From NCBI GenBank assembly GCA_017615355.1, contig JAGAAJ010000067.1, positions 1 through 38,284 of the forward strand: a DNA stretch of 38,284 nt, given 5' to 3'. Position numbers and translations under genes: made by a program. This stretch comes from Prevotella sp. (lineage in GTDB: Bacteria; Bacteroidota; Bacteroidia; Bacteroidales; Bacteroidaceae). The notes under the pieces are model-generated. The model did not search any database. It had not been told where the DNA came from and saw nothing but the letters and a program-made list of their open reading frames with translations. Positions 318 to 29,672 of the stretch are shown here, one piece after another. Position 1 is the stretch's first letter. The number at the start of each line of letters is the position of its first letter.

Positions 318-2630
318 TTATCTGATGAACAGCAGCTCGCGGTACTTGGGGAGGGTCCAGAGGCCGTCCTCGACGATCATCTCGAGGTGGTCGGCCTCGC
401 TGCGGATGGCCTGCATGTGGGGACAGACGGTGTCGTGATAGGCGATGGCACGCTGATGGATGTCGGCGATGCGATTGGCCACGCGACGGGCCTCGGTGAG
501 CTCCTCGACCAGCTGCTCGATACGCTCGGTGCGCTCGGCAATCTCCTCAATAAGCTTCATATTACGAGCGGAGAGGCGAAGGCCTTTGTCGGCGGTTGGC
601 TCTTGGCCGTTGGTAGTCGGCTGCTGACAGGAGAAGATGTCCTTCATGCCCTGCACATTCTTGATGAGCTGGCTCTGATAATGGGTGGAGACGGGGATGA
701 TGTGGTTCATGGCGAGGTCGCCAAGGACACGGGCCTCTATCTGCACGGTCTTGACGTACATCTCCCACTTCACTTCGTTGCGGGCCTCCAACTCCTTGCG
801 GGTCATGACGTTGGTGCTCTCGAAGAGACGGACGCTGGCCTCGTCGAGGTAGTGTTCGTAAATGACGGGACAAGACTTCTCGACATCCAATCCACGGCGT
901 GCTGCCTCCTGCACCCACTCATCGCTATAGCCATTGCCGTCGAAGCGTACGGGACGACTGGTCTTGATGTCGTCGCGCAGCACATCGATGATGGCATGAT
1001 ACTTGGCGGTGTGGCCTTCGCCGAGGGCGAACTCAGGACGCACGGCATACTCGGCCATACGCTCGTCGACACGACGCTTGAACGACGTAAGGGCCTCTGC
1101 CACAGCGGTGTTGAGGGCTATCATGGCCGATGCACAGTTGATGCTGGAGCCAGGGGCACGGAACTCGAAGCGGTTGCCGGTGAAGGCGAAGGGCGACGTG
1201 CGGTTGCGGTCGGTATTGTCGACGATGATATCAGGAATCTGCGGGATGTCAATCTCTCGTGAGAGATGAGAGGTGAGGGGTGAGAAGTGAGAGGTTTGTT
1301 CGATGGTGTCGAGCAGGTCGGACACATACTTCCCCAGGAAGGAGCTGATGATGGCGGGCGGTGCCTCGTTGCCTCCCAGACGATGGGCATTGGTGGCCGA
1401 CATAATCGAGGCTTTGAGCAGGCCGTTGTGCTTGTATACGGCCATCAACGTCTCGACAATGAAGGTGACGAAACGCAGCGTCTCGTTGGCAGCTGCCTCG
1501 GGATTGTTGGCGTCGGTCTTGCCAGGAGCGTAGAGCAGGATGCCATTCTTGGACGAGCCAAGCGGCGAAGCCGAGCGATCGGCGGTGAGGCTCCAGTTGT
1601 TATGCTTGCCCGAACCGTTGATGCCATCGAAGGGTTTTTCGTGGAGCAGCACACGGAAGCCGTGCTTGCGGGCCACTTTCTTCATCAGCGACATGAGGAG
1701 CATGTTATGGTCGACGGCGAGATTGCACTCCTCGAAAATAGGAGCAAGCTCGAACTGGTTGGGTGCCACCTCGTTGTGTCGCGTCTTGCAGGGAATGGCC
1801 AGCTCGAGAGCCTGTATCTCCAAGTCCTTCATAAAGGCCTGCACACGATCGGGGATGGTGCCGAAGTAGTGGTCGTCCATCTGCTGGTTCTTGGCACTCT
1901 CGTGGCCCATCAGGGTGCGGCCGGTGAGCATGAGATCGGGACGGGCGCTGTAGAGCCCCTCGTCGACGAGGAAGTATTCCTGCTCCCATCCGAGGTTGAC
2001 ATGTACCTTGGTCACATCATCGTAGAACAGCGAGCAGACGTCGGTGGCGGCTTTGTCGACAGCGTGGAGGGCTCGCAGCAAGGGAGCCTTGTAGTCGAGG
2101 GCCTCACCCGTATAGGCGATAAAGATGGTGGGAATACAGAGGGTATCGTCGATGATGAAGACAGGCGACGTGGGATCCCATGCGGAGTAGCCGCGAGCCT
2201 CGAAGGTGTTACGGATGCCGCCGTTGGGGAAAGAACTGGCGTCGGGCTCCTGCTGTACGAGGAGCTTGCCGCTGAAGGCCTCCATCATACCGCCCTTACC
2301 ATCGTGTTCGACGAAGGCATCGTGCTTCTCGGCTGTGCCCTCGGTGAGCGGCTGGAACCAATGGGTATAGTGGGTGACGCCCATCTCCTGTGCCCACTGC
2401 TTCATTCCGGCAGCTACGGCATCGGCGATGGAACGGTCGAGACGTGCACCGTTGTCGATGACGTCGATGAGTTTCTCGTAGACATCCTTCGGCAGATACT
2501 TGTACATCTTCTCGCGATTGAAGACATACTTGCCGAAATACTCCGACGGACGCTCTTTAGGCGCCTCTATCTCCAAGGGGCGTTTCTTGAACGCCTCCTC
2601 CACGACTTGGAATCTCAGGTTTGCTGACAT
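318..2630 (-). CDS. glnN: Type III glutamine synthetase (GlnN)
   Basis: Ammonia assimilation in the cytoplasm: glutamate + NH3 + ATP to glutamine. The 770-residue chain is full length for the GSIII class, which is typical of Bacteroidota. It starts with the GSIII-specific N-terminal region (EAFKKRP, YFGKYVFN), followed by the catalytic core with GWEQEYFLVDE (metal-binding Glu), NGSGKHNNWS (ATP/glutamate site) and DRNRTSPFAFTGNRFEFRAPGSS (split here only by reading: DNTDRN, then RTSPFAF, then NRFEFRAPG). It is slightly longer than common GSIII proteins (about 730) because of two low-complexity inserts: residues about 446-457, and about 670-681 just before the C-terminal helical region. Both coincide with 7-bp repeat arrays. 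The ATG follows a 57-base spacer from the small gene upstream, most of it another 7-bp array, so glnN may be cotranscribed with it. I see no obvious TAnnTTTG promoter in the spacer. Confidence 0.97.
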   Translation of the reverse strand: MSANLRFQVVEEAFKKRPLEIEAPKERPSEYFGKYVFNREKMYKYLPKDVYEKLIDVIDNGARLDRSIADAVAAGMKQWAQEMGVTHYTHWFQPLTEGTAEKHDAFVEHDGKGGMMEAFSGKLLVQQEPDASSFPNGGIRNTFEARGYSAWDPTSPVFIIDDTLCIPTIFIAYTGEALDYKAPLLRALHAVDKAATDVCSLFYDDVTKVHVNLGWEQEYFLVDEGLYSARPDLMLTGRTLMGHESAKNQQMDDHYFGTIPDRVQAFMKDLEIQALELAIPCKTRHNEVAPNQFELAPIFEECNLAVDHNMLLMSLMKKVARKHGFRVLLHEKPFDGINGSGKHNNWSLTADRSASPLGSSKNGILLYAPGKTDANNPEAAANETLRFVTFIVETLMAVYKHNGLLKASIMSATNAHRLGGNEAPPAIISSFLGKYVSDLLDTIEQTSHFSPLTSHLSREIDIPQIPDIIVDNTDRNRTSPFAFTGNRFEFRAPGSSINCASAMIALNTAVAEALTSFKRRVDERMAEYAVRPEFALGEGHTAKYHAIIDVLRDDIKTSRPVRFDGNGYSDEWVQEAARRGLDVEKSCPVIYEHYLDEASVRLFESTNVMTRKELEARNEVKWEMYVKTVQIEARVLGDLAMNHIIPVSTHYQSQLIKNVQGMKDIFSCQQPTTNGQEPTADKGLRLSARNMKLIEEIAERTERIEQLVEELTEARRVANRIADIHQRAIAYHDTVCPHMQAIRSEADHLEMIVEDGLWTLPKYRELLFIR
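589..623. repeat. In-frame 7-bp repeat array inside glnN (array 2)
   Basis: Five 7-base units in phase (plus strand TCGGCGG, TTGGCTC, and so on), each with GG at the third and fourth base. On the coding strand they read as a Q/P/T/N-rich stretch (QQPTTNGQ, then EPTADK) at residues about 670-681. The frame is kept although five units is 35 bases, so neighbouring bases must have adjusted. Same design as the intergenic arrays. Confidence 0.6.
1259..1293. repeat. In-frame 7-bp repeat array inside glnN (array 1)
   Basis: Five 7-base units (plus strand GTGAGAG, ATGAGAG, GTGAGGG, ...) in exact phase. The coding strand is CTCTCAC-like and encodes TSHFSPLTSHLS at residues about 446-457, in a loop just before the conserved IPDIIVDNTDRN segment. 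Three units make 21 bases and so seven codons, which gives the heptapeptide L-T-S-H-x-S-P. The same unit is found in the GH92 and tatD genes. Confidence 0.8.
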
Positions 2631-2636
2631 ATAATT

Positions 2637-2690
2637 GGTTGATGGTTGACGGTGGATGGTGGATGGTTGATTGTGGATGGTAGAAGGTTA
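2637..2690. repeat. Intergenic 7-bp repeat array upstream of glnN
   Basis: Seven full 7-base units and a partial eighth, consensus GGTKGAT (for example GGTTGAT, GGTGGAT), occupy nearly all of the spacer between glnN and the small gene at 2688. The last partial unit covers the stop codon of that small gene. The reverse complement of the unit (ATCCACC) is the one found in frame in the pectate lyase at 14377. Confidence 0.85.
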
Positions 2691-2819
2691 TAGTGCCTCG
2701 TCATCAGGACGCTGGAGCTGTCGGCCCTTGAGAGGCGGCAGGTGACGTTTGCGACGCAAGTAGGCCTCACGCCGCTCTTCGTATTCCTGCTGGTGTTTCT
2801 CTATATAGCCGTCGGCCAT
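2688..2819 (-). CDS. Small 43-residue charged protein
   Basis: A short open frame missed by length cut-offs: ATG at 2819, TAA at 2690-2688. The product begins MADGYIEKHQQEYEERREAY and ends GRQLQRPDDEAL; it is rich in Glu and Arg, predicted to be one amphipathic helix, with no signal or membrane segment. A good Shine-Dalgarno-like AAGGAG lies about 9 bases before the ATG, and the frame starts 21 bases after the DUF4270 stop, so it fits as the third gene of the minus-strand run GlgA-like, DUF4270, small protein, glnN. My recollection is that small charged proteins occur at this spot in Bacteroides relatives, but I cannot confirm it. Function unknown. Confidence 0.65.
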   Translation of the reverse strand: MADGYIEKHQQEYEERREAYLRRKRHLPPLKGRQLQRPDDEAL

Positions 2820-2840
2820 CTCCCCTACTCCTTTATATTC

Positions 2841-5387: not shown

Positions 5388-6239
5388 TTGAAAGTATTCA
5401 CAAAGATTGTTGACCTGCAGAATGCACTCTTCGACGAGCGCAAGGCAGGACGAAGCGTAGGCCTTGTGCCTACGATGGGAGCGCTGCACGAGGGTCATGC
5501 CTCGCTGGTACGCCGCTCAGTGAAGGATAACGACGTGACTGTGGTGTCGGTGTTTGTCAACCCCACTCAGTTCAACGACCAAAACGACCTCACCCGCTAT
5601 CCGCGGACCTTGGAGGCCGACTGCCAGCTGCTTGAGGATTGTAAGGCCGACTACGTGCTGGCTCCGGCTGTGGAAGAGATGTATCCCACACCCGACAACC
5701 GTCAGTTTGAGTATCCCCCTGTCTCCACCGTGATGGAGGGTGCCCACCGTCCCGGTCACTTCAACGGCGTGTGTCAGGTGGTGAGCCGTTTGTTCTACAT
5801 CGTACGTCCTGACCGTGCCTACTTCGGCGAAAAGGACTGGCAGCAGATTGCCGTTGTCAAGGCGATGGTCAGACAGCTGCAACTGCCCGTTCAGATTGTG
5901 GAGTGTCCCATTGTGCGCGAGGAGGATGGATTGGCCAAGTCGAGCCGCAACACCCTGCTGGCTCCTGACGAGCGAGCCATCGCACCGACCATCTATAAGG
6001 CGCTGAAAGGCAGCACGGAATACGCAAAGAAGCACACCCTGAAAGAAACACACGACTACGTTGTCAGCACCATCAACGCTGTGGACGGCTTAGACGTGGA
6101 ATACTTCTCGATTGTAGACGGCAACACGCTGCAGGACGTCGCCAACTGGGAGGACTCTCCCTACGTTGTGGGCTGCATCACCGTCTACTGCGGCAAGACA
6201 CCCATTCGCTTGATTGACCACATCAAGTATAAGGGTTGA
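5388..6239 (+). CDS. panC: Pantothenate synthetase (pantoate-beta-alanine ligase)
   Basis: ATP-dependent joining of pantoate and beta-alanine to form pantothenate, the CoA precursor. The 283 residues carry the class signatures: [14 protein letters not shown] (ATP-binding HIGH-like motif, residues about 24-37), [37 protein letters not shown] and the KMSKS-like [13 protein letters not shown]. The start is an unusual TTG at 5388: the translated [15 protein letters not shown] matches normal PanC N-termini, and the next ATG lies inside the PTMGALH motif. There is no strong Shine-Dalgarno sequence, as usual in the phylum. panD follows 33 bases later and makes the beta-alanine used here, so the two genes form one pathway operon. 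Confidence 0.96.
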
Positions 6240-6268
6240 AGGTAAAAGGTTAATAGTTAAAGGTTTAT
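6234..6268. repeat. 7-bp repeat array between panC and panD
   Basis: Five 7-base units in phase (GGTTGAA, GGTAAAA, GGTTAAT, AGTTAAA, GGTTTAT). The first unit contains the TGA stop of panC, and the array fills the spacer up to 4 bases before the panD ATG. Confidence 0.8.
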
Positions 6269-6617: not shown

Positions 6618-6980
6618 CAATTCCGGCAGCAGCTGCTGAATATAGGGGCGCTGCCAGTCACGCAGATGGAAACGCTGCTGATCGTACTGCAGCAAATCCA
6701 AATCAACAGGCACAAGACCCTGACGACGAGCCTCGTCGTTGCGGCCTTGTGCTTTTTCCATCTCCTTTAGCCTGCTGTTCAGTTCATCGCAGTCAAGATC
6801 GGACTGCGCATAGACAAGTTGGTTGAGATAAAGACTGCCCTTCTTTTTGCCGTATGGCTCCGTCCAGATGGCAGACGTATAGACAGGAGAGACGAGAACC
6901 TGAGCAAGGGCTTCGCGGGCCTCACTCAGGTTCTTTTCCTGTTCATAATTGCTGGCTAAGGAAAGGAGTATGCTATGCAT
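6609..6980 (-). CDS. folK: FolK-like 2-amino-4-hydroxy-6-hydroxymethyldihydropteridine pyrophosphokinase
   Basis: Transfers pyrophosphate from ATP to hydroxymethyl-dihydropterin in folate synthesis. The 123-residue protein shows the HPPK outline: [14 protein letters not shown] for the usual ALGSNLGDR, then [31 protein letters not shown] (core helix) and [11 protein letters not shown], where the two Asp of the D-x-D bind Mg-ATP. It is shorter than E. coli FolK (about 160), and the G-S-N loop is degenerate, so it is a compact or divergent member; activity is likely but not certain. The gene is last in the argS-rnh-maeB-folK run, separated from maeB by a 57-base gap almost wholly made of 7-bp repeats, and it overlaps panD end to end. 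Confidence 0.75.
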
Positions 6981-7036
6981 CTTTTACCAATAACCAATAA
7001 ACTATAACCGATTGTCGATAGCTAAAGCCAATAGCC
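6981..7036. repeat. 7-bp repeat array filling the maeB-folK gap
   Basis: Eight consecutive 7-base units (plus strand CTTTTAC, CAATAAC, CAATAAA, CTATAAC, ...; minus strand GTTATTG-like) run from the base next to the folK start codon to two bases short of the maeB stop. The array is the whole intergenic region except one base. Confidence 0.75.
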
Positions 7037-12404: not shown

Positions 12405-13907
12405 ATGAACCGACTGCAAATCTATCGCGAACTGCGTCGCCACTCTAAGTTGGGCGAGAAGCGCCACCCTATGCTTGAGCAGAGCATGGTGGCCAAGGTG
12501 ATGATGTATATCGGTGCCGGCATCATGGCCATCTATCTTGTCTTCCTCGGCAGCCTCTTCGGCAAGATGGCCGCCGAACATGAAGTGCCCGCCATGATAT
12601 TGGGGCTGATGGTATTGCTGCTGATGCCCCTCGATTTCCTGATGCGTTTCATCGCCCAGCAGACGCCGATGATGTTCATCAAGCCCTACCTGCTGCTGAA
12701 CATGCCGAGAAAGACGGTGGTGGAGAGCTATCTGCTCAACCTCGTCACCAGCGGCTACAACTTCCTCTGGTTGGCCCTACTGATTCCTTACGCGTACATC
12801 TGTTTGGTATCGGGCATGAGCTTCTGGGCTTTGTTGGCCGTCGTGCTGTGCGGTCTGCTCATAGTGATGATCAACAGCCAGTGGTATCTGCTGGTGCGCA
12901 CGCTCATAAGCCGCTCACTCCTATGGTGGTTGCTGCCCATCGGCGTCTATGCCGCCATATGGGTGCCCCTGGTGCTGTTATTCAACGATCCCTTCGAACC
13001 CATTGAAGAATTCTTCGACACCTTCGACACGGCACCGATGCTGTGGCTCGTGGTGCTTGCAGCATTACTTGTGCTCGTCGCCATCTTGCTGATCAACCGC
13101 CAGCTGCAGCTGCGCTTTGTCAAACAGGAACTGTCGCGTGAGGAGAAGAAGGCTGCCGCCATCAAGCACGTATGGCAACTGTCATTCCTCGAGCGTTTCG
13201 GACAGGCCGGCGAATACCTGAAGCTGGAAATCAAGAGCATCCTTCGCAACAAGGCCATTCGCACCCGCGTGCTGATGAGCCTCGGACTCATCGTCATGTT
13301 CACGGTGCTCATTAGCTACACCGACATCTACGACAATCCCTGGATGCTGAACTTCTGGTGCTACTACTGCTTCGCCATCTACAGCATGACCACGTTGGTA
13401 AAAATCATGGGACCGGAGGGCAACTACATCGACCTGCTGATGACACAGCGCGAGAACATCCTCCTACTGCTGCGTGCCAAGTACTACTTCCATGCGGTCA
13501 TCCTGCTCATTCCCCTGCTCATCATGCTGCCTGCCGTCATAGCCGGCAAGTTCACCATCATGATGATGCTGGCGTTCCTGCTGCTGACCAGTGGCCTGAG
13601 TTTCTTCATCCTATTCCAGCTGGCCGTCTACAATAAGCAGACGCTGCCGCTCAACGAGAAAATCACGGGTAAGAACAATATGGAGAGCGGTTTCCAACTC
13701 ATCATCGAGCTGGTGGGCATGTTCCTGCCGCTGGCCCTGGTGGGACTCCTGCTGGGAATGACCGACGAGGACACAGCCTATACCATCATGGCTATCATCG
13801 GCCTGGCGCTCACCCTCGCCCACCCCATCTGGCTGCGAAACATCTACAACCGCATGATGCGACGTAAATACGTCAACATGGAAGGCTTCCATGCCTCGAG
13901 AAGTTAA
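12405..13907 (+). CDS. DUF5687 family multi-pass membrane protein (ABC-permease-like)
   Basis: 500 residues with about ten to eleven predicted membrane helices (for example around residues 32-55, 110-165, 190-225, 300-320, 350-385, 440-475). The opening MNRLQIYRELRRHSKLGEK and the motif YLKLEIKSILRNKAIR in the middle cytoplasmic region match the DUF5687 family, which I know as the membrane partner of a separate ABC ATPase in Bacteroidota. No ATPase gene lies on either side here; the next gene is a pectate lyase. The start is fixed by the stop-start junction with the LolA-like gene. The 3' end runs into a 7-bp array whose first unit contains the stop codon. Substrate unknown. Confidence 0.78.
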   Translation: MNRLQIYRELRRHSKLGEKRHPMLEQSMVAKVMMYIGAGIMAIYLVFLGSLFGKMAAEHEVPAMILGLMVLLLMPLDFLMRFIAQQTPMMFIKPYLLLNMPRKTVVESYLLNLVTSGYNFLWLALLIPYAYICLVSGMSFWALLAVVLCGLLIVMINSQWYLLVRTLISRSLLWWLLPIGVYAAIWVPLVLLFNDPFEPIEEFFDTFDTAPMLWLVVLAALLVLVAILLINRQLQLRFVKQELSREEKKAAAIKHVWQLSFLERFGQAGEYLKLEIKSILRNKAIRTRVLMSLGLIVMFTVLISYTDIYDNPWMLNFWCYYCFAIYSMTTLVKIMGPEGNYIDLLMTQRENILLLLRAKYYFHAVILLIPLLIMLPAVIAGKFTIMMMLAFLLLTSGLSFFILFQLAVYNKQTLPLNEKITGKNNMESGFQLIIELVGMFLPLALVGLLLGMTDEDTAYTIMAIIGLALTLAHPIWLRNIYNRMMRRKYVNMEGFHASRS

Positions 13908-13935
13908 AAGAGGAAAGAGGAGAGAGGAAAGAAAA
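13901..13935. repeat. 7-bp repeat array after DUF5687
   Basis: Five 7-base units in phase (AAGTTAA, AAGAGGA, AAGAGGA, GAGAGGA, AAGAAAA). The TAA stop of the DUF5687 gene is inside the first unit. A related purine-rich array occurs in frame in purL (24013-24040). Confidence 0.8.
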
Positions 13936-13961: not shown

Positions 13962-16199
13962 ATGAGAAAAATTCTATCTGTGGCAGCAATAATGCTGCTG
14001 ACAGTTGTTTCGTGGGTTCGAGCAGACATTAGTCAGACGCTGACCATAAACGGCCAGACGATGCAGGGTATCGTCAACCGCATCACCTTCGACGGTGACA
14101 ATGTGGTGCTGCACTTTGCCAGCGGCGACAACCAGACAGCCGATATGGACGTTGTCGTGCTGAGCTTCGACTATTCTTCGTTGGTTTCCGTCGAAGAGCT
14201 CTCCAGCCTACACCTTGCATCCTCTACCGTTACCATCTACGATGCACAGGGCAAGCTCATCGCCACCACCACGGCCCAAAATGCGAAGGCCATGCTCGCC
14301 TCTCCGACAATGCGCAATGGTATCTACCTGCTCAAAAGCGGCCTGCAGACCATCAAGGTCAGCACCTCACAACCCTCCTCCATCCACCATACACCATCCA
14401 CCCTCATCACCCGTGCTGCCGGCACGGATGGCTCCGTACCTCGCAACACAACTGTCAGTCAGGCACTGCTCACGCTGACCGATGGCACTAACCGTTATTA
14501 TGACACGCAATCGCTGGAGGCCATCGACATCGACGGGCAGACGGGCCGCATTACGCTGACCGCCACCAGCCAGCAGCAGGATCTGTTCAATGCCACCCTC
14601 GCCACCCTCGCCTTCGCTAAAGGACAAACAGGCGAAGGCGTCGTCATCACAGAGGCACAGGGCTGGCAGGAATCGGCCTATGTGAAGTTCAACCTCTTCG
14701 AGGGCGCCACTGCTTACAATGTCTATGTGAAGGGCGGACAGTTTGCCGACTTCACCAAGATTGACGATGAGTTGGTGCGCAACTACGGCACCTACGGCCG
14801 TGCTGACGCTGTGGGCCTCAAAGCAGGCAGCTACACCATGAAGGTCGTACCCGTGATTGACGACAACGAGCTGACCGACAAGGCCACCACCACTGATGCA
14901 CTCACCGTCAAGAACTACGACCGCACGGGCTACGCCCATTTCAACTACAGCGGAGTGGGTGCCTACAACGATGACGGCACACTGAAGCAGGGTGCGAAGG
15001 TGTTCTACGTGACAAATGCCACCGCAAAGACCATCAGCACCGACGTGGTTGGAGCCACGAAGAATCCCTGTGTCGGCCTTCAAACCATCATCAATGCCTA
15101 CCAGAAGGGGAAGGACACCACGCCCATCGTCTTCCGCTTCATCGGACTTGTAGAGAAAAACGACCTCGATGCCATTGGTAGCTCAGCCGAAGGTTTGCAG
15201 GTGAAAGGCAAGAATGCCAATTCTGAGTTGAACATCACCTTCGAGGGTATTGGCGACGATGCCACCCTACGCGGCTTCGGTTTCCTTGTACGCAACGCCA
15301 AGAGCGTGGAGTTCCGCAACTTCGCCATCATGCGCTGCATGGATGACGGTATCTCCCTCGACACTGACAATTCTAATATCTGGATACACAACCTCGATTT
15401 CTTCTACGGCAAGCACGGTAGCGGCGACCATGAGAAGGGCGACGGAGCCTGCGACGCCAAGGCCGACTCGAAATACTGCACCTTCAGCTACTGCCGCTAC
15501 TGGGATACTGGCAAGACCAATATGTTTGGTATGAAGAGCGAGAGCGGGCCCAATTACCTCTCGTATCACCACAACTGGTTCGACCATAGCGACTCGCGTC
15601 ATCCCCGTGTGCGCACAATGACCGTCCACGTCTACAACAACTTTTTCGACAATGTAGCCAAATACGGCGTAGGAGCCACCTACGGCGCCAGCATCTTCGT
15701 GGAGAACAACTACTTCCTCAAGACCAAGAAGCCCATTCTCTCCTCGAAGCAGGGCACTGACGGCATGGGCAGCGGCACGTTCAGCGGCGAGGATGGTGGC
15801 ATGATCAAGGCATACGGAAACTATTTCGACCGCACCTGCAAGAACTTCAGCTACTACACACAGGAAGCCCCCTCGGCCAAGGGCTACGATGCCTACGAGG
15901 CAGCCACCCGCGACGAGCAGGTGCCTGAAACGGAGAAGACCCTTGCCGGTGGCACGACCTATAATAACTTCGACACCAATCCGCAGCTCATCTATAACTA
16001 CACACCAAATGCTGCCGAGGATGTGCCCGCCATCGTCACCGGTTATTACGGTGCAGGCCGCATCAATCACGGCGATTTCGAGTACACTTTCTCAGACAAC
16101 GTGGGCAACGACGATAACAACTCAGCCTATGACACCGTGCTGGGTAATAAGATTGACAACTACAAACCTGCCCTTATCGGATTCTTCGGCACACGTTAA
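13962..16199 (+). CDS. Secreted pectate lyase, family PL1
   Basis: Cleaves polygalacturonate by beta-elimination outside the cell. 745 residues: signal peptide (about 1-21), an N-terminal beta region, an Fn3-like segment (about 225-310), and a PL1 parallel beta-helix (about 330-700). Helix markers are FVEFRNFAIMRCMDDGISLD-like turns (SVEFRNFAIMR, DDGISLDTDN), the calcium site GDGACDAKADSKYCTFSYC, WDTGKTNMFGMKSE, and SDSRHPRVRTMTVHVYNNFF, whose RHPRVR holds the catalytic Arg. Residues about 85-135 (VTIYDAQGKLIATTT, NGIYLLKSGLQTIKV) look like a T9SS type A sorting tail but lie near the N-terminus. Residues about 139-148 come from a 7-bp array. Convergent with the GH43-like gene; no SusC/SusD pair is nearby. 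Confidence 0.92.
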   Translation: MRKILSVAAIMLLTVVSWVRADISQTLTINGQTMQGIVNRITFDGDNVVLHFASGDNQTADMDVVVLSFDYSSLVSVEELSSLHLASSTVTIYDAQGKLIATTTAQNAKAMLASPTMRNGIYLLKSGLQTIKVSTSQPSSIHHTPSTLITRAAGTDGSVPRNTTVSQALLTLTDGTNRYYDTQSLEAIDIDGQTGRITLTATSQQQDLFNATLATLAFAKGQTGEGVVITEAQGWQESAYVKFNLFEGATAYNVYVKGGQFADFTKIDDELVRNYGTYGRADAVGLKAGSYTMKVVPVIDDNELTDKATTTDALTVKNYDRTGYAHFNYSGVGAYNDDGTLKQGAKVFYVTNATAKTISTDVVGATKNPCVGLQTIINAYQKGKDTTPIVFRFIGLVEKNDLDAIGSSAEGLQVKGKNANSELNITFEGIGDDATLRGFGFLVRNAKSVEFRNFAIMRCMDDGISLDTDNSNIWIHNLDFFYGKHGSGDHEKGDGACDAKADSKYCTFSYCRYWDTGKTNMFGMKSESGPNYLSYHHNWFDHSDSRHPRVRTMTVHVYNNFFDNVAKYGVGATYGASIFVENNYFLKTKKPILSSKQGTDGMGSGTFSGEDGGMIKAYGNYFDRTCKNFSYYTQEAPSAKGYDAYEAATRDEQVPETEKTLAGGTTYNNFDTNPQLIYNYTPNAAEDVPAIVTGYYGAGRINHGDFEYTFSDNVGNDDNNSAYDTVLGNKIDNYKPALIGFFGTR
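14377..14404. repeat. In-frame 7-bp repeat array inside the pectate lyase gene
   Basis: Four 7-base units (CCTCCAT, CCACCAT, ACACCAT, CCACCCT) in phase, coding SSIHHTPST at residues about 139-148. It is the reverse complement of the unit that makes up the intergenic array at 2637-2690. It lies in the linker between the N-terminal region and the rest of the enzyme. Confidence 0.75.
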
Positions 16200-17361: not shown

Positions 17362-17385
17362 ATTGACAAATACTAATTTTGGGGA

Positions 17386-17417
17386 CAAATTTACTGGTTT
17401 CTGCACATTTCCCCAAA
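17386..17417 (-). promoter_or_regulatory. Promoter for the GH43-like gene
   Basis: On the minus strand TTTG (17417-17414), exactly 20 bases, then TAAATTTG (17393-17386), 24 bases before the ATG at 17361. Perfect match to the phylum consensus. Confidence 0.78.
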
Positions 17418-17421
17418 TATT

Positions 17422-17453
17422 TTTGCAAGAATCTTCAGATTGTATTATCTTTG
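17422..17453 (+). promoter_or_regulatory. Promoter for the EEP-GH92 gene
   Basis: TTTG (17422-17425), 20 bases, then TATCTTTG (17446-17453), 20 bases before the ATG at 17474. Its -33 box is only 4 bases from the -33 box of the opposite promoter, so both cannot easily be occupied together. Confidence 0.75.
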
Positions 17454-17473
17454 TAGGCAATTTACTACAACCA

Positions 17474-20400
17474 ATGCTTATGACACGCAAGACATTCATC
17501 CCCTCCCTGCTGGCCCTGCTGTTTGCTGTGCAGGTCACAGCACAGGAACTCTACGTAGGGTCGTATAATATCAGATACAAAAACAGCGACGATGCCGCCA
17601 ACGGCAATGGCTGGCAGCAGCGTTGTTCCGTGGTGTGCGATCAGCTTAACTTCGAACATCCTGACGTGTTCGGAGCACAAGAGGTGCTGGAGCCGCAGCT
17701 AAAGGATATGCTCGCGCGACTCGACGGCTATGACTACATCGGCGTGGGGCGCGACGACGGCAAAACGAAGGGCGAGTATGCCGCTATCTTCTACGACAAA
17801 CAGAAGCTACGCCTTTTGGACAGCGGACATTTCTGGCTCTCGGATACACCCGACAAGCCCAGCCTCGGATGGGATGCAGCCTGCATCCGCATCTGCACGT
17901 GGGGATTGTTCAACATTAACGATAACCTTAACCCTAACCTCAACATTAACGATAACGAAAAGGGACTGCAGTTCTATTTCTTCAATCTGCACATGGATCA
18001 TGTGGGCGTGGTAGCACGGCGTGAAGCCGCCAAGCTGGTGGTGGAGCGTATCAAGGAGATGGCAGGCGACACCGTGCCTGTTGTGCTGACGGGCGACTTC
18101 AACGTTGACCAGAACGATGAGATATACAGCATTTTCACACAATCGGGCCTTCTGCGCGACAGCTACACAGCCACACGACTGCGCTTTGCTGAGAACGGCA
18201 CATTCAACGGCTATCATCAGGAGCGAAAGACCGACAGCCGCATAGACCACGTCTTTGTGTCGCCGCAGTTCACCGTCGACCGCTACGGCGTGCTGACCAA
18301 CACCTATTGGACTGACCGGCAGCGTCTGCCCTCGGATCATTATCCCGTGTTGGTCAGACTAGCCCCCCTCAATCCTCCAGAAGGGGAGAGGAGCACAGTC
18401 CCGCAGCCATTCCTTCCCCCCTCGGGGGGATTGAGAGGGGGTGTCAACCCCTTCATCGGCACGGGCGGCCACGGCCATGTGTTCCTCGGTTCTAACGTTC
18501 CCTTCGGCTTCGTGCAGCTAGGGCCGACACAGCACAACCAGGGATGGGACTGGTGTTCAGGCTACCACTACAGCGACTCCATTCTTGTAGGTTTCGGACA
18601 TCTGCACCTCAGCGGCACAGGTGTTGGAGATTTGGGTGACATCGCCTTCCTGCCCGTCCTTCACCCCAACCAGCAGGAGGTGAAGTTCTCGCATCGGTCC
18701 GAGTATGCACGTCCAGGCTATTATTCAGTAATGCTCGACAACGACATCCGAGTGGAGCTGACGTCGACGGAGCGTACAGGCCTGCATCGCTACACCCTGC
18801 CAGCCGACATGCCTGTCGGCTACATCAGGCTCGACCTCAATCAAGGCATCGGCTGGGATAAGGCCACTGACTGCGAGGCACATCAGGAGAGTCCGACCGT
18901 TATCAGTGGCTACCGTTTCTCTGAGGGCTGGGCCAACAACCAAAAGGTGTTCTTCGTGGCAGAGTTCTCAAAGCCCATTGCAATTGACAAAGACGAATCC
19001 ACCGCCAAGGTGCTCAGATTTGCCAATGGTGACCGACCACTATTAGTGCGTATTGGTCTATCGGCGGTGAGCATCGAGGGCGCCAAAGCCAACCTGCAGG
19101 CTGAACAGCCAGGCTGGGACTTTCAGTACACCGTAGCTGAGGCTGGCCGCAAGTGGGAGGAGCAGCTGCAGAAGATCCAGGTGACAGGTGGCACCGACGA
19201 CGAGCGTACCATCTTCTATACCGCACTCTACCATACAATGACCGCTCCATCGGTGTTCTGCGACGTTGACGGCAAATACCGAGGCTCTGACGGCGAGGTA
19301 CATCACCTCTCAGCTCTTACCTCTCACTACTCACCTCTCAATTATACCACCTTCTCGCTCTGGGACACCTACCGTGCTGCCCACCCGCTGATGACGCTCA
19401 TACACCCTGAGATGCAGGAGAACATCGCAACAACGATGCTGAATATATGGCGCGAGCAAGGAAAGCTGCCCGTCTGGCACCTCATGGGCTGCGAGACGAA
19501 CTGTATGGTGGGCAACCCTGCCATCCCTGTATTAGCCGACCTGGTATTGAAGGGACTGACGAAGCAGCAAGACACAGCCTTCGAGGCGATGAAAGCCTCG
19601 GCGATGATGGACGAGCGTGGTCTTAAGCTGCTAAAGGAGTACGGTTATATTCCCTGCGATCTCTTTGACGACAATGAGACTGTAGGTCGAGCTATGGAGT
19701 ACGCCTTGGCCGACTGGTGCGTGGCACGCGTAGCAGAAAAGATGAAACGCAAGGCCGACCAGCAATACTTCGACCAACGTGCTCAGAGCTACCGCAAGTA
19801 TTTCGACCCCGTCACCGGATTTATGCGCGGCGTCGACAGCAACGGGAAGTTCTCCTTCTCAGACGCAGCAAATCCTTTCAATCCTTTCCATTCTGCGCCA
19901 AAGAACCGCGACTACACAGAGGGCAACGCCTGGCAGTACACTTGGCTCGTACCCCACGACGTGCACGGATTGGTGTCACTTTTCGGCACAGAGCAGCGCT
20001 TCGTCTCAAAACTCGATTCGCTCTTCATCGTCGAGGGTGATTTAGGAGAAGAGGCACCGCCCGACATCACCGGTCTCATCGGTCAGTATGCCCACGGCAA
20101 CGAGCCCAGCCATCATGTGCTCTACCTATATAATTATGTGGGACAACCCTGGAAGGGAGCCAAGCTCATCCGCCGCACCCTGAGCGAGCTATACCACAAC
20201 GCACCCGACGGTCTCAGCGGCAACGAGGACGTGGGCCAGATGTCGGCATGGTACATCCTCTCGGCTATGGGTCTCTATCAGGTGGAGCCCGCAGGTGGCA
20301 AGTTTGTTTTCGGTTCGCCGCTGTTCCCCGAGGTGACGATGAACGTTGGCTGTGGCAAGGCCTTTACTATTCGTGCCCTTAACGTCAGTGATGAAAACAT

Positions 20401-20545
20401 CTACATCCAAAGTGCTCGTCTGAACGGCAAGCCCTACACCCGTTCCTACATCATGTACGACGATATCGTGCGCGGCGGCACACTCGAATTTCAAATGGGC
20501 CCGCAGCCCTCAGATTTCGGCACTAAAAAGAAGGACAGGCCATAG
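17474..20545 (+). CDS. Fusion of secreted EEP-family phosphatase/nuclease and GH92 alpha-mannosidase
   Basis: 1023 residues from the ATG at 17474 (a second ATG at 17480 is equally possible); the open frame further up lies in promoter DNA. Signal peptide about 1-22. Endonuclease/exonuclease/phosphatase domain about 23-295: VGSYNIRY, FGAQEVLEPQL (metal Glu), FNLHMDH, VLTGDFNVD, SRIDHVFVSP and SDHYPVLVRL, with all catalytic Asp/His/Asn positions present. Linker about 296-320, encoded by an inverted repeat. GH92 domain about 321-1010: VNPFIGTGGHGHVFLGSNVP, FSLWDTYRAAHPL, VWHLMGCETNCMVG, TEGNAWQYTW, HGNEPSHH and GNEDVGQMSAWY. GH92 enzymes remove alpha-mannose with inversion using calcium. EEP partners could remove phosphate, as on phosphomannan, but that is inference. 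The GH92 part lacks its own signal peptide. Confidence 0.9.
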   Translation: MLMTRKTFIPSLLALLFAVQVTAQELYVGSYNIRYKNSDDAANGNGWQQRCSVVCDQLNFEHPDVFGAQEVLEPQLKDMLARLDGYDYIGVGRDDGKTKGEYAAIFYDKQKLRLLDSGHFWLSDTPDKPSLGWDAACIRICTWGLFNINDNLNPNLNINDNEKGLQFYFFNLHMDHVGVVARREAAKLVVERIKEMAGDTVPVVLTGDFNVDQNDEIYSIFTQSGLLRDSYTATRLRFAENGTFNGYHQERKTDSRIDHVFVSPQFTVDRYGVLTNTYWTDRQRLPSDHYPVLVRLAPLNPPEGERSTVPQPFLPPSGGLRGGVNPFIGTGGHGHVFLGSNVPFGFVQLGPTQHNQGWDWCSGYHYSDSILVGFGHLHLSGTGVGDLGDIAFLPVLHPNQQEVKFSHRSEYARPGYYSVMLDNDIRVELTSTERTGLHRYTLPADMPVGYIRLDLNQGIGWDKATDCEAHQESPTVISGYRFSEGWANNQKVFFVAEFSKPIAIDKDESTAKVLRFANGDRPLLVRIGLSAVSIEGAKANLQAEQPGWDFQYTVAEAGRKWEEQLQKIQVTGGTDDERTIFYTALYHTMTAPSVFCDVDGKYRGSDGEVHHLSALTSHYSPLNYTTFSLWDTYRAAHPLMTLIHPEMQENIATTMLNIWREQGKLPVWHLMGCETNCMVGNPAIPVLADLVLKGLTKQQDTAFEAMKASAMMDERGLKLLKEYGYIPCDLFDDNETVGRAMEYALADWCVARVAEKMKRKADQQYFDQRAQSYRKYFDPVTGFMRGVDSNGKFSFSDAANPFNPFHSAPKNRDYTEGNAWQYTWLVPHDVHGLVSLFGTEQRFVSKLDSLFIVEGDLGEEAPPDITGLIGQYAHGNEPSHHVLYLYNYVGQPWKGAKLIRRTLSELYHNAPDGLSGNEDVGQMSAWYILSAMGLYQVEPAGGKFVFGSPLFPEVTMNVGCGKAFTIRALNVSDENIYIQSARLNGKPYTRSYIMYDDIVRGGTLEFQMGPQPSDFGTKKKDRP
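17912..17957. repeat. In-frame 6-bp repeat inside the EEP domain
   Basis: Seven hexamers AACnnn plus a partial eighth (AACATT, AACGAT, AACCTT, ...), coding alternate Asn residues (NINDNLNPNLNINDN) at about 147-161, between two conserved EEP strands. The first two hexamers are repeated at the end of the array. Confidence 0.85.
18363..18441. repeat. GC-rich inverted repeat pair at the EEP-GH92 junction
   Basis: Two about 28-base copies in opposite orientation (18363-18391 and 18413-18441). Each has CCCCCTC then AATCC then a GGGG tract; the second is the reverse complement of the first with a few differences. They encode the linker (NPPEGERS ... PPSGGLRGG). Each copy is itself nearly palindromic at its centre (CCCCTC/GGGG). 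I know similar CCCTCTCAATCCCC elements as intergenic sequences in Prevotella-like genomes, from memory only. Confidence 0.75.
19307..19341. repeat. In-frame 7-bp repeat array inside the GH92 domain
   Basis: Five 7-base units (CTCTCAG, CTCTTAC, CTCTCAC, TACTCAC, CTCTCAA), coding LSALTSHYSPLN at residues about 612-623, just before the conserved TTFSLWDTYRAAHP. Same unit and peptide as glnN array 1. Confidence 0.8.
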
Positions 20546-23276: not shown

Positions 23277-26200
23277 GGGCCTCCACCCATTTGCGTGCAT
23301 TAACGAAGGCCTCGATCCACGGCGTCACCTCGTCGCTGCAACGATTAGCGGGATACCAGGCGTTCTGCCAGGGGAAGATAGCTCGCTCTAAGTGGGGCAT
23401 CATGCAGAGATGTCGTCCGTCGGCCGAGCAGATACCGGCCACATCGTAGTCAGAGCCATTGGGATTGGCGGGATAGCCGTGATAGTTGTACTTCGCCACA
23501 ATATTGTAGGCGCTTTCTGCCTCCGGCAACGAGAATTTGCCCTCTCCGTGGGCCACCCACAGGCCGAGTTTCGAACCGCTCAACGAGCCGAACATCACAG
23601 AGTTGTTCTGAGGAATGTTCAACGAGATGAACTCACTCTCAAACTTGTGCGAGTCGTTATGCAGCATCTTGGCACCCTTGGCACCAGTCAAGCCGAGTTC
23701 AACCATCAGCTGGCAACCGTTGCAGATGCCAAGTGAAAGGGTGTCCTTGCGGGCATAGAAGCGGTCGAGAGCCTCCTTTGCCTTTGGATTGTAGAGGAAA
23801 GCGCCTGCCCAACCCTTGGCCGAGCCAAGCACGTCGCTGTTCGAGAAACCGCCGCAGAAGACGATGAGGTTGACCTCGTCCAATGTCTCACGGCCCGTAA
23901 TAAGGTCAGTCATCATCACATCCTTCACATCGAAGCCGGCCAAGTAGAGGCTGTAGGCCATCTCACGCTCGCCGTTGGTACCTTTCTCACGGATGATAGC
24001 AGCCTTGGGAGTATTCTCTCCTCTCCCTTCTTTCCTCCACGAAAGCCCGTACTGAGCCAATGTTCCGGTAAAGTCCTTGGGGAATTTCATCTCGATGGGT
24101 TGCTGCTTATAGTTCTCAAAGCGCTCCTTGGCCTTGCCGTTGAAGCTCTGCTTACGGTCGAGCAGGTAGCTGGTCTTGTACCATACGTCACGTAGATGGT
24201 CGATGTCAAAAGTCAATTCATCTTCACCAGCCATGACTACAATGGTGCGGCTGTCCTCCACGGGGTAGCCAATCTTAGCATAGCCCACGCCCAAGTCCTC
24301 CATCAGCTCCTTGAATTCAAACTTGTGCTCGTCGCTCACCTCGATGACAACGCCGGGATTCTCGGCGAAGAGCGTCTTCACCACGTCGCCATCGGCACAG
24401 ATATCATGGAGATTGATATGCAGGCCTCCCTTGGTGTTGGCGAAGCACATCTCCAAGAGCGTGGTGATGAGACCGCCGGCAGAGATGTCGTGGCCAGCAA
24501 GAATCCACCCTTTCTCAATCATCTGCTGAATAGCCATAAAGGCATCGGCAAAATATTCGGGATTATCCACCGTGGGGACATCGTCGCCTACCCTGCCTAA
24601 GCTCTGGGCAAAGGCTGATCCGCCTAAGCGCTGCTCGCAGAATGAGAAGTCGATGTGATAGAGCGAGCAATGCTTGTCGTTCTTGATGACAGGAGAGACG
24701 ACCTTACGTACATCGCTCACCTCGCCGCCAGCACTGACGATGACCGTTCCCGGAGAGATGATCTTCTCGCCATTGGGATACTGCTGTGTCAGCGACAGCG
24801 AGTCCTTACCCGTAGGCACGTTGATATGTAGGGCACAGCAGAAATCGCTCAACGCCTGCACAGCCTGATAGAGACGGGCATCCTCACCCTCCTGCGAACG
24901 GCAGGGCCACATCCAGTTGGCACTCAATGACAACGAGTCCATTCCCTCGGTCAGCGGTGCCCACACGATATTCGTCAGCGCCTCCGCCACAGAGAGGACG
25001 GAGCCAGCAGCAGGATTGGCCAAACCAGCCTGGGGTGCATGGCCAATAGCGGTGGCAATGCCTTTCTTTCCACGATAGTCGAGGGCCACGACACCGCAGT
25101 CACTCAACGGCAGCTGTAACTCGCCCTGACACTGCTGGCGGGCAATTTTTCCCGTGACAGAACGGTCCACCTTATTGGTGAGCCAGTCCTTACAAGCTAC
25201 AGCCTCCAGCTGGAGCACGCGGTCGAGATACTCATTAATCTTATCCTGAGCGTACGTCACATCCCCATAGTGGCGTTCCACGGTGTTGTCGCGCATAATG
25301 GTCTTCGGTGAATGACCGAACATCTGAGCCACGTCAAGGTCGAAAGGTTTCACGCCATCGCCCTGCACAAAGCTGAAGTGGGCATCGCCAGTGGTCTCGC
25401 CGACGACATAGAGCGGAGCACGCTCGCGCTCGGCAATCTTACGGACGTGGTCGATATGCTTCTCGTCGATGAGCAGTCCCATGCGTTCCTGACTCTCATT
25501 AGCAATAATCTCCTTCGATGAAAGTGTGGTGTCACCAATGGGCAGTTTCGTCATATCGATGACGCCGCCACAATCTTCGACAAGCTCCGAGAGACAGTTC
25601 AGATGGCCGGCTGAGCCGTGGTCGTGGATGGAAACAACGGGGTTGACATCCTCTTCACATAGGGCACGTACCAAGTTGTAGGCACGCTTTTGCATCTCGG
25701 GATTGGCACGCTGTACAGCGTTCAGCTCAATACCGCTGCTGTAGCGGCCTGTGTCAACTGAGGAGACAGAGCCGCCACCGAGACCGATGCGGTAGTTATC
25801 GCCACCGACGACGACGACCTTATTGCCTTTCTGCGGCTCTTTCTTCAGGCAGTCGCGCTTGGTGCCATAGCCCACGCCGCCAGCCAGCATAATAACCTTG
25901 TCGTAGGCGTACTTGGTCTGGTTAGTTGCGGCTGAGTTGCTACTTACTGAACTTTCCTGGTGCTCAAAAGTGAGGACAGAGCCGCAGATGAGCGGCTGAC
26001 CGAACTTATTACCGAAGTCAGAGGCACCGTTGGAGGCCTTGATGAGTATCTGCTCAGGTGTCTGGTAGAGCCATTCGCGTACCGGCAGAATGTTTTCCCA
26101 GTCACGAGCCAGTTTCTCGTCATCAGTAAGCCTTGGATAAGCGGTCATGTAGACGGCCGTGCCTGCGATTGGCCAAGAGCCGACACCGCCACCCATACGG

Positions 26201-27033: not shown

Positions 27034-27041
27034 CAAAATTA
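27034..27041 (-). promoter_or_regulatory. Promoter -7 element for purL
   Basis: TAATTTTG on the minus strand, 30 bases before the chosen ATG. The -33 box is not clear. No PurR-type palindrome or purine riboswitch was recognised in the 140-base spacer. Confidence 0.55.
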
Positions 27042-27133
27042 GACAAAAAAAACTAATTACGAGTTAATCTCTGTCAGTTTTTCTTAAATACATCTGAGTT
27101 TTTTGAGCCTGAATCATTTTTTTCCAGAAATAA

Positions 27134-27164
27134 TTGGCGTATTCAAGAAAATATACTAATTTTG
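27134..27164 (+). promoter_or_regulatory. Promoter for the TonB-like/polyprenyl synthetase/TatD operon
   Basis: TTG (27134-27136), 20 bases, then TAATTTTG (27157-27164). The ATG at 27181 follows only 16 bases after the box, so the 5' leader must be very short. Confidence 0.7.
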
Positions 27165-27180
27165 CGCGACAACAACGACA

Positions 27181-27873: not shown

Positions 27874-27879
27874 CGACAT

Positions 27880-28854: not shown

Positions 28855-28858
28855 CTAT

Positions 28859-28886
28859 AGAAGGAAAGTAGAAGGAGGAATGTGGA
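28859..28886. repeat. 7-bp repeat array leading into the tatD start codon
   Basis: Four 7-base units in phase (AGAAGGA, AAGTAGA, AGGAGGA, ATGTGGA); the next unit would begin with the tatD ATG itself. The AGGAGGA unit (28873-28879) is a strong Shine-Dalgarno sequence 7 bases before the start. Confidence 0.7.
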
Positions 28887-29672
28887 ATGAAGATCGAATT
28901 CATTGACACACACTGTCACTTGGACGGCGAGGAATTTAATGCGGATCGTGCCGAAGTGATGCAACGGGCCCGTGAAGCTGGTTGTAAGGCCATTTTCCTG
29001 CCCGCCATCGACCTGGCGTCGTCAGAACGTATCCTGCAACTCTGCCAGCAACATCCCGACTTCCTCTACCCCATGATCGGCCTCCATCCCGAGGAGGTAC
29101 GTGCCGACTGGCGTGAGCAGCTGTCAGCCATCAAGGCCCTTCTCACCTCACAGCTCTCACCTCTTATCGCCATCGGCGAGGTTGGCCTCGACTTTTATTG
29201 GAGTCGTGAATTCGAGCAGGAGCAATTGTTGGCTTTTGAAGAGCAGGTGAAATGGTCGGTAGAGACACGTCTGCCGCTGATGATTCACTGCCGTAAGGCA
29301 CAGAACGAGATGGTTCAGATACTAAAGAGGTACGCGCGTGAGCTTCCTGGCGGCGTGTTCCACTGCTTTACCGGCAATGAAAAAGAAGCTGCCGAACTGT
29401 TGCAGTTCGACAACTTCGTTCTTGGTATCGGCGGTGTCTCAACGTTCAAGAAGAGCCATCTGCCAGAGGTCTTGCCTGCTGTAGTGCCGCTCGACCGTTT
29501 CGTCCTTGAGACGGATGCTCCTTATATGGCCCCTGTACCCAATCGCGGGCAGCGCAACGAACCGGCCTTCGTCATCCATGTCTTACAGCGGCTGGCTGAA
29601 GCCTACGGCGTCACTCCCGAAGAAATAGCTCATCGTACCAATGCCACCGTAGGCCGTATCTTCAAACGGTAA
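28887..29672 (+). CDS. tatD: TatD family metal-dependent DNase
   Basis: 261-residue TIM-barrel hydrolase; family members are 3'-5' exonucleases in DNA repair. Metal ligands are all there: IDTHCHLDGEEF (HxH), IAIGEVGLDFYW (Glu), LPLMIHCRKA (His), GGVFHCFTGN (His) and VLETDAPYMAPVP (Asp). Loop residues about 85-94 (LLTSQLSPLI) are encoded by a 7-bp array, just before the Glu-bearing strand. It starts at ATG 28887 behind an AGGAGG that belongs to another array. Last gene of its operon; it ends 15 bases from the convergent kinase-like gene with no clear terminator. Confidence 0.93.
   Translation: MKIEFIDTHCHLDGEEFNADRAEVMQRAREAGCKAIFLPAIDLASSERILQLCQQHPDFLYPMIGLHPEEVRADWREQLSAIKALLTSQLSPLIAIGEVGLDFYWSREFEQEQLLAFEEQVKWSVETRLPLMIHCRKAQNEMVQILKRYARELPGGVFHCFTGNEKEAAELLQFDNFVLGIGGVSTFKKSHLPEVLPAVVPLDRFVLETDAPYMAPVPNRGQRNEPAFVIHVLQRLAEAYGVTPEEIAHRTNATVGRIFKR
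29140..29167. repeat. In-frame 7-bp repeat array inside tatD
   Basis: Four 7-base units in phase (TTCTCAC, CTCACAG, CTCTCAC, CTCTTAT), coding LLTSQLSPL at residues about 85-94. Same unit as glnN array 1 and the GH92 array. Confidence 0.75.

Follow-up and report, generated by a model that had tools for sequence, protein, structure and literature searches.

Heptamer arrays in the genes and spacers of a Prevotella genome and their turnover between sister genomes

A stretch of 38,284 nucleotides from Prevotella sp. (GenBank assembly GCA_017615355.1, contig JAGAAJ010000067.1, positions 1 to 38,284; the whole of it is referred to here as the window) carries short tandem arrays of degenerate 7 bp units, both in its spacers and in frame within unrelated enzymes. 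The question raised by this locus is what kind of sequence these arrays represent and how they come about. The reading preferred here, to which a probability of roughly 0.55 is given, is that they are hypermutable and largely neutral heptamer arrays with a 7 nt register which are born, slipped and rewritten quickly, with hairpin copying in addition in the genome that holds the window.

This genome (G000) comprises 3.25 Mb in 147 contigs and is estimated to be 89.7% complete. The best relatives of the glutamine synthetase III encoded in the window are Prevotella or Prevotellaceae records, many of them from ruminant samples; the nearest (L089 in genome G060) has 96% protein identity, and G060 and G000 share 92% DNA identity over 1.7 kb. 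Genomes G061 (L090), G062 (L091), G063, G065 and G066 are further off. Periods were scanned in 59 stretches of G000 (714,308 bp) picked regardless of arrays, with an order-3 Markov control, and units were counted in 81 stretches (1.083 Mb, about a third of the genome), 20 of which had been picked for GGT-type matches on contigs. The scan was extended to 80 related loci fetched with glutamine synthetase (1,010,813 bp), a few of which are titled only Bacteroidales or Bacteroidaceae and to which some genomes contribute two loci, and to 20 genomes from other Bacteroidales families (272,622 bp). Five congeners (G003, G004, G006, G009 and G010) were sampled at 60 to 80 kb each.

Period 7 stood out in G000, with 71 lag-7 segments against none in the Markov control and against 0, 9, 16, 9 and 1 segments for periods 5, 6, 8, 9 and 10. 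A pattern with GGT at every seventh base gave 66 matches in the same genome (overlapping matches within one array being counted singly) compared with three for the backward pattern. The initial annotation had described a window-wide family with a 7-base step, to be checked by a genome-wide scan of period 7 against periods 5, 6 and 8; such a family, with that step, was borne out across the genome. In this excess over neighbouring periods the arrays agree with long simple sequence repeats (LSSRs) of the heptanucleotide class. In G060, 48 segments of period 7 were found (1, 13 and 12 for periods 5, 6 and 8), and the 80 related loci gave 0, 3, 70, 22, 23 and 3 segments for periods 5 to 10. Other Bacteroidales families hardly show period-7 arrays, with three segments of period 7 and seven of period 10. 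The load among the sampled congeners ranged from none (G004 and G010) through four (G003 and G006) to 24 arrays (G009). After the strict arrays had been masked, an excess of lag-7 identity persisted: z was 11.7 for the coding sequence of G000 and 15.0 for the other Prevotella loci, compared with −1.0 in other Bacteroidales. It comes from short runs, chiefly of 4 to 6 matches. The excess is still seen in G004 and G010 taken together (z = 4.7), which have zero strict arrays in the sample, but not in G003 (z = −0.9).

The units of the arrays form a genome-specific vocabulary. The census of G000 yielded 138 arrays with 47 consensus units, the commonest being CTCTCAC (27 arrays), CTCTCAA (12) and CATCAAC (10); the earlier view that each array has its own unit thus holds only in part, the commonest two accounting for 27 and 12 of the 138 arrays. 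The probability that two G000 arrays share a unit is 0.059, against 0.005 when letters are permuted and 0.001 for random genomic heptamers, and with units common to several loci beyond composition-matched chance a strictly local origin of the units is too narrow an account. Between genomes the corresponding values were 0.052 (G000 and G060), 0.022 (G000 and other Prevotella stretches) and 0.004 (G000 and G009), and among the arrays of G009 the value was 0.245. The vocabularies thus drift between species.

Composition differed with the period. CpG is present in 41% of genomic heptamers; in G000 a single one of the 138 period-7 consensus units contains it, whereas it is present in each of the 13 period-6 units and in 16 of the 22 period-8 units, and the corresponding counts in G060 are 3/48, 11/13 and 7/12. 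The contrast is weaker in the other Prevotella loci (0/64, 1/3 and 4/22). Units holding both G and C number 20 of 138 in G000 (94 expected) and six of 48 in G060 (32 expected), and a GGG or CCC run occurs in five units of the G000 sample. Separation of G and C onto opposite strands was rejected as a general rule, being broken in G009, where 19 of 24 units hold both. A single universal unit motif was likewise rejected: alignment of units by rotation and strand gave only 0.4 to 0.7 bits per unit above letter-permuted units, which is beyond the spread of the controls but small. Among the period-6 arrays (window 16910-16949 and 37806-37830; L087:1-97) the unit is mostly ACGAAA/ACGATA (CGTTTT), and CGTTATNN makes up many of the period-8 arrays, so that each period has a repeat grammar of its own.

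Turnover was followed by mapping flanks between the sister genomes. From G000 to the sample of G060, 19 of 133 arrays were resolved, and in the reverse direction 24 of 48, giving 30 distinct sites, 15 coding and 15 in spacers (the HPPK site at 6842 was counted as a spacer since the gene caller missed that short gene). At these orthologous sites the flanks are 75-98% identical and the arrays differ in length, unit or existence; the comparison of orthologous loci suggested at the outset showed no conservation of the arrays in distant orthologues. By a mild cut-off both genomes are 7-periodic at 18 of the 30 sites (9/15 coding and 9/15 spacer), and a few of the remaining sites resemble weak arrays by eye. 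All 15 coding length differences, ten of them non-zero, are multiples of 3, compared with five of 15 in spacers; divisible by 7 are five of the 15 spacer differences (one of them zero) and six of the 15 coding differences (five of them zero). The frame is thus kept at every coding site between these two species, and in this comparison between species no switching of a reading frame as in phase-variation (contingency) loci was seen.

The steps in length were 7, 7, 7 and 56 bp in spacers and 21, 21, 21 and 105 bp in genes. Changes by whole units are seen at 2636-2688 (53 bp in G000 and 46 bp, 7 bp shorter, in G060; G061 has another unit, CTCAACC, on the opposite strand) and at 13907 (26 and 33 bp, 7 bp longer in G060). 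At L014:19098 the unit is swapped in place, GTGAGAG versus GGTTGAT, and no array is present in G061 or G062. An array stands opposite unrelated sequence at L073:4812 and in the HPPK gene (19 bp versus 64 bp). The clearest case is the gene for TatD DNase, in which the site measures 28 bp in G000 and 49 bp in G060, is a CTCAACY array of 133 bp in G061 and has no array in G062; the differences of 21 and 105 bp are divisible by both 3 and 7.

According to a home-made gene caller, 80 of the 138 G000 arrays lie in predicted genes and 58 between genes, where 17% would be expected. Skewed coding arrays have C on the coding strand in 59 of 75 cases, a bias that fits the prediction from stop avoidance; a strand rule for spacer arrays was rejected (15 versus 21, p = 0.41). 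The peptides LTSHLSP, NHQPSTI, STLNSQL, RKEERGE and NGQWSMV recur among those encoded by arrays, and some arrays make the hydrophobic core of a signal-like N-terminus (MKRILLSLSFIICHFSFSVAQ). Open reading frames (ORFs) of at least 120 amino acids, shadow ORFs included, were divided by a crude hydrophobicity rule, and a lag-7 score of at least 12 in the first 105 nt was found in 9/409 signal-like versus 12/977 other ORFs in G000, 5/131 versus 6/348 in G060, 7/390 versus 2/1198 in other Prevotella and 0/74 versus 0/179 in other Bacteroidales.

Comparison of 274 flanks of G000 arrays revealed 75 similar pairs belonging to different arrays, in windows that can include the partner arm. The structure behind them consists of a G-rich array, a core and an inverted C-rich array. 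Within 130 bp, an inverted partner was found for 30 of 134 G000 arrays and a direct partner for 12 (permuted-unit control, 0), and the G-rich arm came first in 28 of the 30 inverted pairs; the arrays of the window are not among the paired ones. The sample contains 22 hairpins, the cores of which measure 9 to 84 bp. When 20 cores were compared in 190 pairs, eight pairs scored at least 12 (none when shuffled) and 12 pairs at least 10 (four when shuffled), the best (score 27) joining two hairpins 3.8 kb apart on the same contig. Alike cores can carry different arms (L011:4553, GGTGAGA; L015:10187, CCTCCAC). Of 122 skewed G000 arrays, 19 have the core word [AT]TTGTC or its complement on their inner side and none has it on the outer side; the word had been picked from the data in which it is counted. 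Copying between loci has happened in G000, since some of its hairpins share a core across loci, and part of the arrays of this genome has spread in this way. The earlier statement that the arrays are not copies of one element is right but too narrow, as the recurring cores mean that some copying did take place.

Several further hairpin-like sequences were noted. In L244 and L243 (G061) repeat arrays and the reverse complements that come after them form long repeat-built hairpins. Both arms of one hairpin have changed unit together between L010 and L174, which suggests fold-back copying. A palindromic element of ∼45 bp of the CCCCC...GGGGG type at L014:17977-18022 matches dozens of places in relatives (G061, G062 and G065), frequently close to the end of a contig. 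The glutamine synthetase loop of L103 contains a similar palindrome.

The arrays could be mainly the arms or remnants of a small hairpin element moved by a transposase, comparable to miniature inverted-repeat transposable elements (MITEs) or repetitive extragenic palindromic (REP) sequences, with the solitary arrays as decayed copies. The inverted partners of fixed polarity, the 22 hairpins, the similar flanks and the position of the core word all speak for such an element, and inverted arms with a recurring core do characterize part of the G000 arrays, although not most of them and not those of G060. This origin nevertheless appears unlikely: most arrays have no partner, the cores are mostly unlike one another, hairpins are scarce in G060 and in the other loci though arrays are common there, and a scan of the fetched stretches for a Y1 transposase motif gave two matches, neither of them transposase-like by eye.

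The order of units within arrays bears on slippage. Unit identity at a lag of two or three units exceeds permutation in G000 (4/1000) and G009 (6/1000) and more weakly in G060 (34/1000), and neighbouring units agree slightly less than in permuted arrays (0.185 versus 0.221, s.d. 0.027). The agreement at these lags argues that blocks of units have been duplicated, as slippage would do. Words of two and three units are also shared between G000 loci above permutation (2 and 11 of 300), as are words of four units in G009 (6/300). Slippage could in principle be purely local, starting from chance seeds with zero exchange between loci, the vocabulary then reflecting base composition and codon usage. 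The block structure inside arrays would suit this, as would two-unit seeds in array-poor orthologues (CCTCACG CCTCATA in GH92 of G061; AACAGCC AACTGCC in glutamine synthetase III of G060), yet the explanation is distinctly improbable in view of a unit sharing 12-fold over letter-permuted units, the fall to 0.0039 between G000 and G009 against 0.245 within G009, a CpG content specific to the period and hairpin cores that recur at several G000 loci. Local slippage as put forward in the initial annotation is thus supported by the unit blocks and by the length changes of 7, 56, 21 and 105 bp, but is too narrow for the sites at which lengths changed otherwise.

The reading of hypermutable, largely neutral arrays would combine these elements as follows. 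Arrays would be born at poorly constrained sites and would grow and shrink in unit blocks by replication slippage with a preferred 7 nt register. Whole arrays would often be rewritten into another unit of the vocabulary of the genome, for which template switching or repair synthesis may be the simplest route. Selection would act as a filter in genes, where arrays would survive if frame and a stop-free strand allow, as in loops, linkers, tails and signal peptides; in spacers the arrays sit near stop and start codons. About a fifth of the G000 arrays are arms of short hairpins, some of which have been copied to several loci. The period, the vocabulary, the turnover between conserved flanks, the filtering by frame, the unit blocks, the inverted pairs of fixed polarity and the recurring cores are observed; slippage, template switching, neutrality and the direction of copying are what we infer from them.

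A number of results weigh against this reading. Where both sister genomes have arrays (18 sites), the change in length is not divisible by 7 in ten cases. Slippage alone gives no reason why period-7 units avoid CpG and units of periods 6 and 8 bear it, and accounts neither for the genome-specific vocabulary nor for the fixed polarity of the hairpins. Hairpin features are scarcer outside G000: inverted partners were found for three of 48 arrays in G060 and four of 59 in the other loci (all seven with the G-rich arm first), and in G009 for two of 24 (control, 2; direct partners, 13), while the core word occurs on the inner side of 0/42 arrays in G060 (one outer) and 0/56 in the other loci (three outer). 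Finally, four-unit words are not shared between G000 loci above permutation (180/300), and no excess of shared unit order was found in G060 at any word length.

The position of the spacer arrays might point instead to selected regulatory or spacer elements, either as unstructured leader RNA or as a site for an RNA-binding protein, a role suggested by MacGregor for TAACTGA repeats. No more than 10 bp separates 34 of 49 spacer arrays from a gene edge (25.9 expected), and in spacers of at least 120 bp this holds for nine of 22 (2.3 expected). Compared with random sequence of matched GC content, 55 of the 58 spacer arrays have less structure. A selected role is nonetheless quite doubtful, for genes hold more arrays than spacers (80 versus 58), unit and presence differ between sister species and the spacers show no strand preference. 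The 7 nt step and the genome-specific vocabulary would also suit a dedicated templating machine, telomerase-like or a retroelement, that writes 7 nt units. The number of consensus units, 47 within a third of one genome, and the rarity of the two words tried in viral contigs make this very improbable, and no pointer to a templating enzyme was found by the MutS survey described below and one transposase motif, which were the only means used, no reverse transcriptase search having been made. A phage origin was rejected on the same two words: three copies of CTCTCAC occur in 10 stretches of the viral collection and the CATCCAC-type word in none. An assembly artefact or chance, conceivable in that most of the compared genomes are metagenome bins, judged by record titles, is scarcely credible given 71 arrays against 0 in the Markov control, five arrays per 14 kb in L149 from a named strain (Marseilla massiliensis An824) and flanks that align cleanly across species.

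The arrays of the window (Table 1) were scored by lag-7 identity against 30 order-3 Markov copies of it. The number of equals expected per 38 kb is 0.00 for the arrays at 1259, 2637, 6981, 13901, 14377 and 19307, 0.07 for 6234, 0.37 for 589 and 1.1 for both 28859 and 29140; for 24013 it is 23.9. When the whole window was scanned, nine segments reached a score of at least 10 (0.37 expected); these overlap nine of the eleven listed arrays but not 24013 or 29140, and Tandem Repeats Finder reported period 7 at six of the eleven. At least eleven strict arrays had been claimed; seven stand clearly above chance and 589 is borderline, whereas 28859 and 29140 are at chance level alone and 24013 is indistinguishable from chance. 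The 29140 stretch is supported by relatives, the TatD orthologues in G060 and G061 holding arrays. The claim that arrays occur both in spacers and in frame was confirmed, with six in genes and the other five in spacers or at the end of a gene.

Table 1. Heptamer arrays and related sites in the window.
Position	Strand	Feature	Location and remarks
589..623	-	In-frame heptamer stretch, coding-strand type GCCAACN	Glutamine synthetase III near C-terminus; borderline alone
1259..1293	-	In-frame CTCTCAC array, peptide TSHFSPLTSHLS	Glutamine synthetase III loop
2637..2690	+	GGTTGAT/GGTGGAT array	Spacer directly upstream of glutamine synthetase start
6234..6268	+	GGTTGAA-type array	Overlaps pantoate ligase stop codon and spacer after it
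6833..6852	-	Array-free site	19 bp of HPPK gene; G060 has a 64 bp CTCTCAC/CTCACAC array instead
6981..7036	.	CCAATAA/CCGATAA array	Fills spacer from HPPK gene to malic enzyme gene
13901..13935	+	AAAGAGG array	ORF end and spacer before pectate-lyase-like gene
14377..14404	+	In-frame CCACCAT array	Pectate-lyase-like protein; 12 bp longer in G060
19303..19341	+	In-frame CTCTCAC array	GH92 part of ORF
24013..24040	-	Purine-rich stretch	PurL, directly before amidotransferase domain; not above chance alone
28859..28886	+	Weak 7-step purine stretch	Directly before TatD start codon; chance level alone
29140..29167	+	In-frame CTCTCAC stretch	TatD DNase

The remaining window sites vary between relatives in the same manner. 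The array at 589..623 is 21 bp longer in G000 than in G060, and the site at 1259..1293 carries CTCGCAC units in G060. The site at 6234..6268 is 15 bp longer in G060, just 7 bp in G061 and made up of a period-7 plus a period-8 array in G066. At the GH92 site G000 alone has an array (39 bp, compared with 18 bp in G060, 24 bp in G061 and 18 bp in G062). The ORF carrying the 24013 stretch, PurL, contains FGAR-AT domains according to Pfam; its linker holds a CTCTCTC array in G065, the weak stretch in G000 and unrelated sequence in G060, G061 and G062. At other periods the window alone has 11 segments of period 9 (0.33 expected) and four of period 6 (0.67 expected). An in-frame period-9 array, ACTAGTNNN, lies at 10132-10172 in the arginyl-tRNA synthetase gene, and period-9 arrays of the ACTAGT type are seen repeatedly in both G000 and G060. 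At 17345-20545 a single ORF holds an endonuclease/exonuclease/phosphatase domain (73-332) joined with a GH92 enzyme (367-1053), and the joint reads PPEGERSTVPQPFLPPSGGLRGG, which resembles the coding of a palindromic repeat of the CCCCCTCGGGGG type. No tRNA genes were found in the window.

In the survey with the MutS1 model, 33 of 35 genomes had a MutS1 above the curated cut-off; the full-length protein was not found in G049 or in G009, which is 99% complete and has the highest array load of the congeners sampled. The same survey brought up a third MutS homologue of ∼600 amino acids in some congeners. It has MutS domains III and V, the former scoring in one of two proteins tested, does not reach the NCBIfam cut-off of either MutS1 or MutS2 and has hydrophobic N-terminal stretches by eye. 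The gene for this MutS-like ATPase was matched in 68 of 200 genomes of the genus (the match in G114 being a fragment), and G000 is among the 132 without it. Array load was approximated by an index that counts two patterns, read forwards and backwards, each of these four being 7-periodic; this proxy is biased, as G003 scores 0 but has four arrays in 80 kb and G010 scores 113 but has none in 60 kb. An index of at least 5 was reached by 20 of 68 congeners with the gene and 95 of 131 without it (Fisher p = 6e-9, uncorrected for ancestry), by 12/48 and 28/40 at a completeness of at least 90%, and by 8/34 and 11/19 at a completeness of at least 97% (p = 0.018); with a cut-off of 10 at the latter completeness the association has p = 0.12. 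Among 19 genomes with marker sequence, G000 included, one of nine with the gene and eight of ten without it were array-positive. Strong exceptions that carry the gene are G206 (277 index hits) and G010 (113); a broken gene in G010 was rejected, the supposed stop mark being its own terminal stop codon. On a short and poorly resolved MutS1 tree of the 19 genomes the label for this paralogue requires seven changes (shuffled mean 6.6) and is not clustered, and the array label needs seven changes as well, with only one independent pair on well supported branches. That arrays are commoner where the MutS-like ATPase is missing is an exploratory lead, found post hoc with a biased index and uncorrected for ancestry.

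A bolder version would hold that Prevotella rewrites poorly constrained DNA by period-specific grammars (CpG-free heptamers and ACG-bearing hexamers or octamers), that the heptamers spread partly as polar hairpin arms under the restraint of the MutS-like ATPase and that the products feed loops, linkers and signal peptides. Taken as a whole this is speculative and rather unlikely.

Short tandemly repeated repetitive (STRR) sequences of heterocystous cyanobacteria (Calothrix, Anabaena and Nostoc) are heptamer tandem arrays dispersed over the genome. They comprise a few defined heptamer families common to many loci, unlike the Prevotella arrays with 47 units in 138 arrays, 27 of which have the commonest, and with 80 of 138 in predicted genes. 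Three tandem heptanucleotides of Calothrix are cited in the relevant sections of PMC4692102. The same sections describe the Xanthomonas/Nostoc repeat GGGAATC/GGGGAYT, whose arrays lie near ORF ends, with inverted pairs noted, and occur in the same spacers of sister species with extensive variation in length and sequence (Rehm, 2015, PMC4692102). Placement near ORF ends, variation between sister species and inverted pairs are shared with the present arrays. In contrast, that unit is single, G-quadruplex-forming and under-represented in coding regions, and is found in none of the 138 G000 arrays, 80 of which are in predicted genes. TAACTGA direct repeats, as far as the sections in point of PMC4679880 describe them, occur in Beggiatoaceae, cyanobacteria and five Bacteroidetes, next to start codons and with 7 nt-step indels between close strains (MacGregor, 2015). 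The likeness extends to heptamers beside start codons, 7 nt-step indels and occurrence in Bacteroidetes; unlike the broad vocabulary here, they consist of a single heptamer whose relatives are rarely repeated, and the unit is present in 0/138 G000 arrays. As quoted in these passages of PMC4679880 and PMC4692102, heptanucleotides are the commonest class of LSSRs (units of 5 to 11 nt) in most genomes, and 7 nt was proposed to be the length contacted by the polymerase (Mrazek, 2007). The abundance of heptanucleotides is alike, and the passages mention no Prevotella case. In the description available from PMC4596501, a Porphyromonas gingivalis MITE with a minisatellite likewise ties a tandem repeat to an inverted-repeat element in Bacteroidales, and is set apart in that the minisatellite sits inside the MITE. 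Prevotella is not mentioned in the pertinent part of PMC4060949, and no account of heptamer arrays in Prevotella was found in the open-access literature. The initial annotation, too, knew of no description for this group, but heptamers are known far more widely than in the heterocystous cyanobacteria that it named, judging from the sections of PMC4679880 and PMC4692102 cited.

Heptamer arrays as such are thus known from cyanobacteria, Xanthomonas and Beggiatoaceae; new are the many units per genome, the abundance in frame, the period-specific grammar, the polar hairpin arms and the fast rewriting. If the preferred reading is true, much of the variation between sister species in Prevotella spacers, enzyme loops and secretion signals would be fast turnover of 7-letter arrays, which differs from ordinary point mutation. 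It would matter for annotation, where LTSHLSP, NHQPSTI, STLNSQL and similar peptides recur in unrelated proteins, and for strain typing. For the old question of why seven is favoured in bacteria, the genus would offer related genomes of very different load, hairpins that bear witness to copying and a candidate gene.

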